DNA from: a virus
Reading direction: 5' to 3' (one strand)
Virus record (IMG/VR): IMGVR_UViG_3300047471_000528
Span: 1-42,923 of that record
Length of the DNA stretch: 42,923 nt
This document shows, one piece after another, positions 8,188 through 12,834 of this stretch. How positions within the stretch are numbered: position 1 is the stretch's first letter; every line of letters begins with the position of its first letter. The position numbers and the translations under genes were made by a program. The notes under the pieces were generated by a model that did no database searches, was not told the DNA's origin, and saw nothing but the letters and a program-made list of their open reading frames with translations.

Positions 8188-9825
8188 CTAGAGTCTATTT
8201 GATGTTGTTCTTTCGAGCAGCGCGGCAAATGTGTCGGGGTCATCTATCGACCATGAATTGGTGACAGTTTCTCCGAAAATTTGTCGTTTCTGCTCGACCA
8301 TATCGTACCAGTAAAATTCGTCGATCGTGCCTTTCGCTACGATATATTCGTAGTTTGTAACTTTGTCTTTCAATCCACGATCTTCCATAATCTGAGGATC
8401 AGGATTGAAGAATCGGCATTCAAATTGTTCTTCCATCGCGCTGCTCCAACCGCGCTCACAGATTATGACATTCTCAATATAGAGAAAATCCATTCCCTCT
8501 CGAACCGCTGTTGTATTCATTGTTAGAATGCGTTCGGGTGCGGCGCGGAATGAATTCATTATTTCAAATTTCTTTTCAGGACTGTCAGATCCATCAATTT
8601 TCATTACTCCGTATTGTGCGAGATTGAGTTTGAGTAAATCTCTCACAACATAATGATGCAATCCAATTGCGTATTTCGTTTTTGGATCATCGTCTAATCC
8701 AACTTCAATCAGATTGGCGATGAATTTCGCTTTGGCCAATCCCGCAATTTTACGGAGTTCCATGAGATTGTCTTGTTGTTCCATCCAGGACTTTCGTCCG
8801 GCTGCAATCTCTTTGTCCATTTTATCCAATGTCGCATTATACAGTTGCTTGAGTGTTTCATCCTCAACTGTAATCATTGTGAACATTCGGTTTTGTTTTG
8901 GAATCTGAGAGTATACATCTTCCCATTCCCGCCGGAGATAAAATGGAGCAATTGCTTCTTTGAATCTCTCAAGTCTGTAAGGATTGATTCTTGACCATTT
9001 TCCCTTTTCATCCTTGATACACCAAGTTTTCCTGAATGTGTCGAGTGATGGAAATACTTTTGGTGCAACTAAGTTGAGTGGAATGAAATATTCATCGGCG
9101 CGGTTGAGAATTGGAGTTCCTGTTAGTAGAATCTTTCCACAATTCTGTGTGGTTTTCAAAACTTGTGTTCTCACACCAAATACTTCTGTGTCTTGATATT
9201 CAGTTTGGTCAAGAGATTTGAGGAAATTTACTAAAGCCTGAGATCTGTTGGATGAAGTATTCTTGAAATTGTGCGCTTCATCAACAATACAGAGTCCAGG
9301 ATTCAGTTTTGCTAATCTTTCAGCTACATTTCCTTTAGAGAATGTGTCTCTAGAAATAATGTAAGTCTGAAATCCAGGCGGAATGAAACTTTTTGATCCA
9401 ATAATGGGATAAATACCAGATGGATCATCTGTGACCCAATGCTGATGTTCTCCAATCCATTGCCAGAGATTCGCACCACCTACAATTGCGATGCAAGGTC
9501 TGCCATTCAGAAATTTCTGCATCGCAATTCGGAGTCCGCAAAGCGATTGTGGTGTTTTACCCAAACGTTGTTTGTCACCAATTATGCAATTCCATCCAGA
9601 ATCCACGATAAATTGGATTCCATCATACTGATAACCGCGCGGCAAATGGCGACCATCGAGCGAATGTAAATCAATAGAGTGAACATCAAATTTCGGCTTA
9701 TGTTTTTCAACATAAGAGTGTCCACACTTGTAAGCTACCAGAAACGACGTTTCGTCTAACTTAATAGACGAAATCTGTTCCAGAGGTTTCTTACAATAGT
9801 CGCAATGGATGATTAGTTTTGCCAT
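8188..9825 (-). CDS. SNF2-family DEAD/DEAH helicase-like ATPase
   Basis: A 545-residue superfamily 2 ATPase. An N-terminal zinc knuckle (C8, C11, C34, H36) is followed by motif I GDKQRLGKT at 83-91, where SNF2 proteins usually have DEMGLGKT. Motif II is DEAH at 182-185 and motif III is LTGTP at 234-238. The second RecA lobe carries the VREGMDF segment and a late arginine-rich motif (SAMEEQFECR). SNF2 proteins translocate on dsDNA; phage members are linked to recombination, replication restart or remodelling. The start ATG at 9823-9825 puts the zinc knuckle at the N-terminus. Size and order are normal for compact phage SNF2 proteins. The neighbouring gene upstream also begins with cysteine knuckles. 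Confidence 0.88.
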   Translation of the reverse strand: MAKLIIHCDYCKKPLEQISSIKLDETSFLVAYKCGHSYVEKHKPKFDVHSIDLHSLDGRHLPRGYQYDGIQFIVDSGWNCIIGDKQRLGKTPQSLCGLRIAMQKFLNGRPCIAIVGGANLWQWIGEHQHWVTDDPSGIYPIIGSKSFIPPGFQTYIISRDTFSKGNVAERLAKLNPGLCIVDEAHNFKNTSSNRSQALVNFLKSLDQTEYQDTEVFGVRTQVLKTTQNCGKILLTGTPILNRADEYFIPLNLVAPKVFPSLDTFRKTWCIKDEKGKWSRINPYRLERFKEAIAPFYLRREWEDVYSQIPKQNRMFTMITVEDETLKQLYNATLDKMDKEIAAGRKSWMEQQDNLMELRKIAGLAKAKFIANLIEVGLDDDPKTKYAIGLHHYVVRDLLKLNLAQYGVMKIDGSDSPEKKFEIMNSFRAAPERILTMNTTAVREGMDFLYIENVIICERGWSSAMEEQFECRFFNPDPQIMEDRGLKDKVTNYEYIVAKGTIDEFYWYDMVEQKRQIFGETVTNSWSIDDPDTFAALLERTTSNRL

Positions 9826-11328: not shown

Positions 11329-11357
11329 AGTTTAGCATACGGGGGTATGGGTGTCAA
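11329..11357 (-). promoter_or_regulatory. Leftward early promoter, sigma-70 type
   Basis: On the minus strand TTGACA (11357-11352) is followed by a 17-base spacer and TAAACT (11334-11329), with TGC just before the -10 box (an extended -10 element). Transcription would start near 11322, immediately before the operator-like element and the first leftward gene. Of the promoters I can find upstream of the early operon this is the only strong one. Confidence 0.8.
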
Positions 11358-11413
11358 GGGCTATATTCCCTTTGGAATGAGTCACTTAGGGTCGTTCGAG
11401 GTCGGCCATGCGT

Positions 11414-11595
11414 GGGGGGTCTGGGTAGGGTATGCGTGCAGCCGTCCATACTACGTGTAACTCACTCATTCTAAAAGATTTATTTCATTTTCAGTATGAG
11501 AAGTGGTCTCTTGAATGTCTTTATTAATATCTCTTAATATATAATAGAATCAACATCTTACCCATACCATGAGCGGCTGCACCCATCGACCCCCC
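11414..11595. repeat. Nested GC-rich inverted repeats around an AT-rich core
   Basis: Two arms pair in order: GGGGGGTC (11414-11421) with GACCCCCC (11588-11595), and GTGCAGCCG (11436-11444) with CGGCTGCAC (11574-11582). They enclose roughly 100 AT-rich bases including TTATTAATATCTCTTAATAT near 11521. The outer and inner arms keep the same nesting order, so the structure could form a large cruciform or bind paired proteins. An origin or a looping regulatory structure is plausible. Confidence 0.6.
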
Positions 11596-11697
11596 CAACC
11601 AGGGTACAACACAGCACGACAATCACTCATAACTCACACATTCTACACTACTTACATATCACAACGTCTACACTACCGTATACATCAAATGTGCATA

Positions 11698-11725
11698 GAC
11701 GTGCACAGACGTGCTCAAAACGTGC
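11698..11725 (+). promoter_or_regulatory. 28-bp operator-like element, copy 2 (plus orientation)
   Basis: It begins GACGTGCAC and ends AAAACGTGC, as copy 1 does on the other strand. In this copy GTGC recurs at 11691, 11701, 11711 and 11722, about one DNA turn apart, so a protein could sit repeatedly on one helix face. It lies about 50 bases upstream of the rightward -35 box, a position that suits activation or a loop with copy 1. Confidence 0.65.
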
Positions 11726-11776
11726 AACCCCATGAAAACAAGCCACTTTTTTATTGATTTTATTTTCATTTTCCTA

Positions 11777-11805
11777 TTGACTCCCCCCATACATAATGTT
11801 ACTAT
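11777..11805 (+). promoter_or_regulatory. Rightward promoter, sigma-70 type
   Basis: TTGACT (11777-11782), a 17-base spacer rich in C, and TACTAT (11800-11805) preceded by TGT form an extended -10 promoter of the same design as the leftward one. The predicted start falls near 11811-11813, at or next to an ATG (11811) that would give a leaderless message. A frame opening at 11796 lies inside this promoter and cannot be the true start. Confidence 0.75.
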
Positions 11806-11810
11806 TACTC

Positions 11811-12401
11811 ATGTCAACAACTAGAACGGCTTTCATAATGACGCAAACACAATCGGATGTAGCGATGCAGGTCGGATCTAGTTTGTTAGTCAAAACACCT
11901 AAAGGAAAACGCAAAATGACACCCTCAGAAGTAACACCCAAGGTCGAAGTCCCTCGCATTAATCGGAATGTTTTCGATCTCGACTCGTTCGATTACGTTG
12001 ACCTGTTCAAGAATGTCCCCTTTCAAAAAGCGGTATCGGTCGAAGAAGCATTGACTCGGCTCGGTGGTGACTCCGCGAAATTGTTGGAAGCTGTCAACGA
12101 TGGTCTTTTGGCAGAAGCAAAGCGGGTTGCATCGCATGATAATTCGATTCCTTGGATGCAGGACGTTGAGGACGAAACTGGTAAAACGGTTGCTGAAGAA
12201 TTTGCCGGAACGGTTGCGGATTCCAAGACGGTTGGCGGAATGGTTCTGAACCTCGCGAAATCCGTCTACGGCTATAATAAAGCGGCTGCCGCGAAGGATA
12301 AAGCGGGCAAAGCGAAAGCCAAAGAACAGGCAATGGCTTTTATCGCTGGAAATGAGGTCATCAAGAACGGCTTGAAGGAAAACGCTGTTCCGCAGGACTA
12401 A
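11811..12401 (+). CDS. First rightward gene: Ala/Lys-rich hypothetical protein
   Basis: A 196-residue protein from ATG 11811, which coincides with the predicted transcription start (leaderless reading); ATG 11838 (MTQTQSD) is an alternative. Neither has a clear Shine-Dalgarno sequence. The N-terminal 50 residues are Lys/Pro/Val-rich and probably disordered. The middle has helices (VSVEEALTRLGGDSAKLLEAV, DGLLAEAKRVAS), and the C-terminus is an alanine/lysine helix (KAAAAKDKAGKAKAKEQAM). Codons look more GC-rich than in neighbouring genes. It has its own promoter and is followed by a hairpin, so it may be strongly expressed by itself. Function is unknown. Confidence 0.72.
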   Translation: MSTTRTAFIMTQTQSDVAMQVGSSLLVKTPKGKRKMTPSEVTPKVEVPRINRNVFDLDSFDYVDLFKNVPFQKAVSVEEALTRLGGDSAKLLEAVNDGLLAEAKRVASHDNSIPWMQDVEDETGKTVAEEFAGTVADSKTVGGMVLNLAKSVYGYNKAAAAKDKAGKAKAKEQAMAFIAGNEVIKNGLKENAVPQD

Positions 12402-12423
12402 CTAAGGTCTTTTTTTCCTTGCT

Positions 12424-12461
12424 AAACCTCCATACTTGGATTATTCTAGGTATGGAGGTTT
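12424..12461 (+). promoter_or_regulatory. 12-bp hairpin burying a Shine-Dalgarno sequence (attenuator or terminator)
   Basis: AAACCTCCATAC (12424-12435) pairs perfectly with GTATGGAGGTTT (12450-12461) around a 14-base loop. The 3' arm contains GGAGG (12454-12458), 10 bases before ATG 12469, so the hairpin hides the ribosome site of the next gene. The four T residues at 12459-12462, and the T7 run at about 12410, also allow weak termination after the first rightward gene. Confidence 0.65.
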
Positions 12462-12468
12462 TATCATT

Positions 12469-12660
12469 ATGACAGAATATGGTGAATTTCGCGTAGTGGC
12501 TGAGAAGTCTGATTTCGCGCAGGAGTTTATTTATGCTCCTGAGTATTCCATGAATGAGGGCGAAGCAACCCACGTGCAATCGGCTTTGTTTTTGGCACTA
12601 CACCAGCAGACTGTGATTCAATACCGTAGAGATTACAACGAAGAATGGCGGAATTGGTAA
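12469..12660 (+). CDS. Small acidic hypothetical protein (63 aa)
   Basis: Starts at ATG 12469 (MTEYGEFRVVAEKSDF), 10 bases after GGAGG, which is held in the 3' arm of a hairpin. An upstream in-frame start at 12436 lies in the hairpin loop and is unlikely. The protein is acidic, with EFIYAPEYSMNEGEATHVQSAL and a Tyr/Arg/Trp-rich end. No family is recognised. Expression is probably controlled by the hairpin. Confidence 0.6.
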   Translation: MTEYGEFRVVAEKSDFAQEFIYAPEYSMNEGEATHVQSALFLALHQQTVIQYRRDYNEEWRNW

Positions 12661-12661
12661 C

Positions 12662-12745
12662 ATGCGCGCCACATTCTACGATCTGGCTTGCGCGGCAATC
12701 ATCGTCTATTTTGTTCAGACGATCCTATTAGCTCTTGGAAAGTAA
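12662..12745 (+). CDS. 27-residue single-pass membrane peptide
   Basis: ATG 12662 is two bases after the previous stop (TAACATG) and the frame ends at TAA 12743-12745. The product, MRATFYDLACAAIIVYFVQT followed by ILLALGK, is one continuous hydrophobic helix with a charged residue at each end. It could be a membrane-active early peptide or a lysis accessory. Such short frames can arise by chance; the tight spacing and clean membrane profile are the evidence. Confidence 0.45.
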   Translation: MRATFYDLACAAIIVYFVQTILLALGK

Positions 12746-12766: not shown

Positions 12767-12801
12767 AAGTACTGGTACTCCCCGAAAGAGTACTAGTACT
12801 T
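12767..12801 (+). promoter_or_regulatory. 14-bp hairpin upstream of a consensus Shine-Dalgarno
   Basis: AAGTACTGGTACTC (12767-12780) pairs with GAGTACTAGTACTT (12788-12801), with one G-T wobble and the loop CCCGAAA. No T run follows, so it is not an ordinary terminator. AGGAGG at 12807-12812 follows, but the next ATG (12835) is 22 bases away, too far for normal use. It may be an RNA regulatory or processing structure. Confidence 0.55.
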
Positions 12802-12834
12802 CGCCAGGAGGTCGGCCCTACAATCTTTAGATAT

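Follow-up and report, generated by a model that had tools for sequence, protein, structure and literature searches.

Genomic Context of the Gene 1–Gene 2 Locus

The window analyzed here is the whole 42,923-base stretch of a virus record, and its matches to terminase, portal, helicase, and primase show it to be a tailed phage. A comparison of its first 24 kb with a phage collection returned no near match. The locus under study comprises gene 1, which is conserved in the phage family, an intergenic hairpin, and a small downstream gene, gene 2 (Table 1).

The gene 1 promoter-like sequence has sigma70-like counterparts, read by eye, at the equal position in relatives. In the divergent early promoter region (11,330–11,800), several CCATAC/GTATGG-like words surround both promoters; these words are possibly repressor operators, judging from the sequence. 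At 11,811 of the window, at 845 of L086, and at gene 2 of L159 and L190, transcription is predicted to begin on the ATG or a few bases from it, and leaderless messages are thus suggested for some relatives on sequence grounds.

The AlphaFold model of the gene 1 product has a pLDDT of 87.5, and searches of PDB and BFVD with this model gave no structural match. No gene 1 homologs were found in the genome contigs or in the phage collection. The gene 1 search recovered two close relatives, L003 and L004 (79 and 77% identity), whose contigs are also held in the larger loci L089 and L086. Terminase scans added many further related contigs, and a gene 1 profile yielded 36 homologs corresponding to 30 distinct downstream junctions. 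The genome contigs contained one terminase relative, located in a bacterial MAG, which gives no host.

Table 1. Positions of the features discussed (window coordinates unless a relative is named).
Feature	Position	Strand	Remarks
Gene 1 promoter-like sequence, TTGACT-17-TACTAT, TG before the -10	11777..11805	+	9 of 12 match
Gene 1, up to 201 aa	11796..12401	+	conserved among these phages; possible true start 11811 or 11916
Candidate -35 of the internal gene 2 promoter, TTGCTA	12419..12424	+	in register with TTGACA of L092 and L201; weak alone
Hairpin, terminator-like stem burying the gene 2 SD	12424..12461	+	fold, position conservation, covariation, plus-strand RNA fold
Candidate -10 at the hairpin loop, TATTCT	12442..12447	+	p = 0.07 alone; predicted start ~12454
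Gene 2 Shine–Dalgarno GGAGG, within the 3' arm	12454..12458	+	
T-rich spacer TTTTATCATT, U tract and SD-to-ATG spacer in one	12459..12468	+	T fraction 0.7 vs 0.21 in 321 intergenic controls
Gene 2 (putative), 63 aa	12469..12660	+	slot filled by unrelated small ORFs in relatives
Hydrophobic peptide ORF, 27 aa, 1 nt beyond the stop of gene 2	12662..12745	+	
Second noncoding element	12769-12825		between gene 2 and the next ORF
Second noncoding element in relatives	L086 ~1164-1220; L089 ~1605-1660; L090 ~3409; L094 ~1941; L102 ~4454; L156 ~5966; L159 ~1111; L162 ~765; L166 ~6674		

A Stable Hairpin Buries the Shine–Dalgarno Site of Gene 2

The stretch AAACCTCCATAC (12,424–12,435) is fully complementary to GTATGGAGGTTT (12,450–12,461), forming the perfect 12-bp hairpin reported in the first-pass annotation. 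As RNA the stem is longer, since two G-U pairs extend it by TTGGA/TCTAG to a total of 17 pairs (12,424–12,440 with 12,445–12,461) around a TTAT loop (12,441–12,444). The free energy of the hairpin is −25.6 kcal/mol, and the 81-nt fold at this site has a z-score of −6.0, with equal stability in none of 200 shuffles. Only one other perfect 12-bp inverted repeat with arms within 80 nt of each other exists in the window, inside helicase coding sequence (9484–9529), and each arm of the hairpin occurs once in the window. An Rfam search of the hairpin gave no match.

The Shine–Dalgarno (SD) motif of the 63-residue ORF was correctly placed in the 3' arm, with exactly 10 nt between GGAGG and the ATG. 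It is wholly buried there (unpaired probability of 0.0), and the stem remains the lowest-energy fold at temperatures up to 85 °C. The hairpin is therefore not an RNA thermometer, contrary to the temperature-driven unfolding proposed earlier.

Complete sequestration of the SD, together with the covariation of the stem described below, is in keeping with a regulated translational switch, in which a small RNA, a protein, or a ribosome opens the hairpin and turns gene 2 on. Apart from its thermal stability, three features of the site speak against such regulation, which had formed part of the original proposal. Between the gene 1 stop and the 5' arm there are 22 nt, presumably too far for a terminating ribosome to reach, and translational coupling is therefore unlikely. 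Arms and loop change freely in sequence among relatives, which leaves no conserved protein or small RNA site. Finally, the hairpin has a single dominant fold with no competing stem seen and no Rfam match. We consider a switch of this kind very improbable. The hairpin, described earlier as attenuator-like, is not a classical attenuator either, as neither a leader ORF nor an alternative antiterminator stem was seen.

The stem is followed by TTTTATCA (5 T in 8), a tail that was not flagged by a strict terminator pattern scan. Since the T tract TTTTATCATT is interrupted, termination in the window may be weak.

Hairpins Recur after Gene 1 in Related Phages

A strong hairpin of unrelated sequence follows the gene 1 stop in nearly all of the ~30 relatives, the junctions of L156, L098, and L116 being without one. 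The lowest 45-nt window after the gene 1 stop had a mean of −22.0 kcal/mol, compared with −12.3 kcal/mol at 188 control stops from the same loci (Mann–Whitney p = 9e-14), and z was below −2 in 24 of 30 gene 1 junctions. A near-exact hairpin pattern scan gave 80 matches, which are not counted among the relatives.

In L181, L178, L194, L159, L113, and L124 the site is occupied by a canonical intrinsic terminator (a stem followed by 5 to 8 T), which fits the earlier suggestion that the hairpin may limit read-through from gene 1. These plain terminators, the T-rich tail behind the stem, and the L086 junction, where a terminator-like hairpin without an SD in its arm is followed by a separate promoter, would also agree with an element that is only a terminator; the overlap of SD and arm would then reflect packing, and gene 2 would be silent or weakly expressed from leak-through. 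This reading is difficult to reconcile with the five junctions whose arm-borne SD is normally spaced from the ATG and whose promoter-like hexamers share one register, or with the burial of the SD in leak-through RNA by 14–18 kcal/mol, and we regard it as fairly unlikely.

No clear T tract follows the hairpins of L102, L090, and L110, whose SD is located just 3' of the stem. The feature common to all relatives is therefore the hairpin itself, not SD sequestration or termination, and termination as the sole shared function was rejected. Stems without a T tract could also belong to an RNA processing or stability element, that is, an RNase III site or a 3'-exonuclease barrier splitting the gene 1 and gene 2 messages, and such an element would agree with folding being favored on the plus strand. 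Stems of 12–19 bp, as found here, are short as RNase III substrates, however, and neither the promoter register nor the T-rich tails would be explained; we judge this option quite improbable.

The plus-strand RNA folds better than the minus-strand RNA in 26 of 27 strong junctions, with a mean difference of 5.5 kcal/mol, whereas at strong control stops the plus strand is favored in 28 cases against 17 (mean difference 1.3 kcal/mol). This advantage, as expected of G-U pairing in the transcript, argues against a DNA-level inverted repeat acting as the operator of a phage repressor. Although CCATAC/GTATGG-like words were also seen by eye around the gene 1 promoter, the arm sequences are not conserved among relatives, and an operator is extremely unlikely.

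The junctions of L110, L090, L102, and L086, in which the arm holds no SD, suggest that the hairpin generally serves to keep gene 1 and gene 2 apart and that capturing the SD is one route to this.

SD Capture and Compensatory Changes in the Arms

The 3' arm carries the SD of the next ORF in five junctions, namely those of the window, L089, L092, L094, and L201. In a scan for SDs within stems that covered 1,765 distinct SD-bearing ATG starts from ~120 related loci, these five were among the seven strongest; the remaining two lie in C+G-rich sequence.

Covariation of the arms in relatives, which the first-pass annotation had named as its own refutation test, was analyzed on a MAFFT alignment in which the short arms were aligned without structure information. 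Both sides change in 11 of the 17 pairs in at least one sequence, among five cases that are not surely independent, as L089 and L201 share an arm sequence. None of 500 shuffles reached the observed value for any of five measures, and the signal was lost when the partner was slid by 1–3 columns. Overall, the sequestration, the covariation, and a possible limit on read-through stand from the initial interpretation, while regulated unfolding does not.

On the gene 1 tree the SD-in-arm class needs five changes, at least three of which are forced by well-supported branches, and the arrangement has thus probably come and gone repeatedly. In L201, a second copy downstream of gene 2 retains the flank TAACTGAAACTTTTCG(A/G)TTGACA, and its arms differ yet still pair.

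Further junctions of a hairpin/promoter style were observed in L201 (1967–2025, 2100–2170, and 2420–2480) and L184 (5739–5800). They include the TTGACA-hairpin module that L201 carries a second time, as well as terminator-like hairpins in which TTGACA in the 3' arm serves the next promoter as its -35 (GGCTTGACAAGGGTTTTTT, GGCTTGACAGGGGTTTT).

A Candidate Promoter inside the Hairpin

An element missed by the first-pass annotation is a promoter-like sequence whose predicted transcript would start inside the 3' arm and could not form the hairpin. The best sigma70-like promoter within 110 nt of the gene 1 stop has a common register in all five SD-in-arm junctions: the -35 at the base of the 5' arm, the -10 at the loop, and the predicted start 14–19 nt before the ATG, which places it within the 3' arm in every case. 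Only L092 (TTGACA-17-GATTAT) and L201 (TTGACA-17-TAACTT) are individually significant (p = 0.01 each); the window promoter TTGCTA-17-TATTCT has p = 0.07 when taken alone, and L089 and L094 have p = 0.18 and 0.26. The mean score of the five junctions is 8.9, compared with 0.64 in 321 intergenic SD starts, and none of 100,000 draws was as high, on a hand-entered approximation of an E. coli-type matrix that may not fit the host of this phage. The last 10 nt before the ATG are 60–80% T in the five junctions and 21% T in intergenic controls.

Promoters beside or overlapping the hairpin were also found in L184, L086, and L169 (p at most 0.03). In L184, TTGACA lies in the 3' arm, and in L086 and L169 the promoter comes just after the hairpin.

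The two possible transcripts differ in SD accessibility. Across the five junctions, freeing the SD costs 13.8–18.2 kcal/mol in read-through RNA and 0.4–5.3 kcal/mol in RNA with the internal start. In the window, the sequestration claimed earlier corresponds to 17.1 kcal/mol in any RNA coming from gene 1, as opposed to 0.4–2.5 kcal/mol in the internal-start RNA. In these short RNAs, weak pairing of the SD with gene 2 sequence is still possible, and the site is thus open at little cost without being entirely free.

Gene 2 Occupies a Variable Slot

A search of viral contigs recovered no homologs of the window gene 2, which is consequently treated as a putative gene only. The gene 2 products of relatives showed no mutual similarity by BLAST on the listed pairs, and comparison with Pfam and PHROGs gave only sub-threshold matches and no confident family. 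The slot therefore appears to hold swappable cargo.

Tiny hydrophobic ORFs (~20–27 aa, e.g., MRATFYDLACAAIIVYFVQTILLALGK) directly follow gene 2 in the window, in L089 (after 1498), and in L201 (after 1884), each beginning no more than a few bases from the gene 2 stop. The 26-codon ORF of L089 resembles the 27-aa ORF of the window by eye.

In diverged phages, a second conserved noncoding element follows gene 2 and precedes the next ORF (Table 1). It consists of a near-invariant GGTACTCCCC, often followed by AGTACTAGTAC and GGGCGCC(T/C)TA. The copies of the window, L086, and L089 form a strong hairpin of ~12 bp or more. The window copy had no Rfam match, and RNAalifold returned no common fold and did not recover the individual stems.

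Proposed Mechanism and Comparison with Known Systems

It is very likely that the hairpin separates the expression of gene 1 and gene 2 in some way. The probable form of this separation, in our assessment, is a terminator-like hairpin of gene 1 fused to the promoter and SD of gene 2. From the observed structure, the conservation of position with turnover of sequence, the covariation, the difference in RNA energy, and the register of the promoter hexamers, we infer promoter activity, termination by the hairpin, and translation of gene 2. A transcript from the gene 1 promoter would form the 17-bp hairpin followed by a T-rich stretch, and the hairpin would end much of gene 1 transcription or protect the 3' end of the gene 1 message. 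In RNA that reads through, the gene 2 SD would be locked in the stem and gene 2 would not be translated. Gene 2 would instead be made from its own sigma70-type promoter, with its -35 at the base of the 5' arm and its -10 at the loop; RNA starting at ~12,454 lacks the 5' arm, and its SD would for that reason be free. Such an arrangement would insulate the cargo gene from upstream transcription.

Several known systems share parts of this design. In IS10 and IS200, the transposase start is hidden in read-through RNA but not in RNA from the promoter of the element itself; the present locus, in contrast, has no transposase or IS ends, and what would be protected is a small phage gene. Lambdoid morons are small variable genes with their own promoter and terminator in a fixed slot, whereas in the window promoter, terminator, and SD are fused into ~50 bp.

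In phage T4, RNAs of e (lysozyme), soc, 49, and I-TevI that come from upstream promoters fold and hide the SD, and late promoters just upstream of the ribosome site of gene e give a translated RNA without the 5' strand (PMC3014915). The window SD is likewise paired in RNA from upstream. The T4 switch is temporal because it uses late promoters, while the best match in the window is sigma70-like with a -35 hexamer (sigma70-type scan); the window hairpin would thus work like the T4 gene e type but is not classed as a member. It also differs in having a terminator-like tail, in sitting where relatives have plain terminators, and in the downstream genes, which in the window family are unrelated small ORFs. 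In phage Aeh1, RNA structure lowers translation initiation of the accessory gene mobE, which differs in encoding a homing endonuclease (cited in PMC3014915). Cluster K mycobacteriophages carry SAS/ESAS, repeated conserved sequences in which inverted repeats with 17-bp arms and a mostly 4–13 bp spacer lie beside translation starts, upstream of the SAS (PMC3203893). Arms of the window type, by contrast, are free in sequence, contain the SD, and occur once each in the window. A limited search of part of the literature found no description of an SD-sequestering terminator hairpin that contains a sigma70 promoter.

More tentatively, and a little short of an even chance in our estimate, a widespread phage family uses a ~50-bp fused terminator–promoter–SD hairpin to insulate a swappable cargo slot whose gene runs only on the hairpin's sigma70 promoter. 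If this is true, a sequence-independent design would allow unrelated accessory genes to be hosted at one site without being driven by a strong neighboring promoter, from which the cargo would be cut off at the levels of both transcription and translation. The T4 lysozyme-type trick would then extend from late timing to cassette insulation, and the hairpin would suggest a very short natural insulator for building gene circuits. For this phage family, the cargo slot would be a place to seek anti-defense or host-takeover genes.
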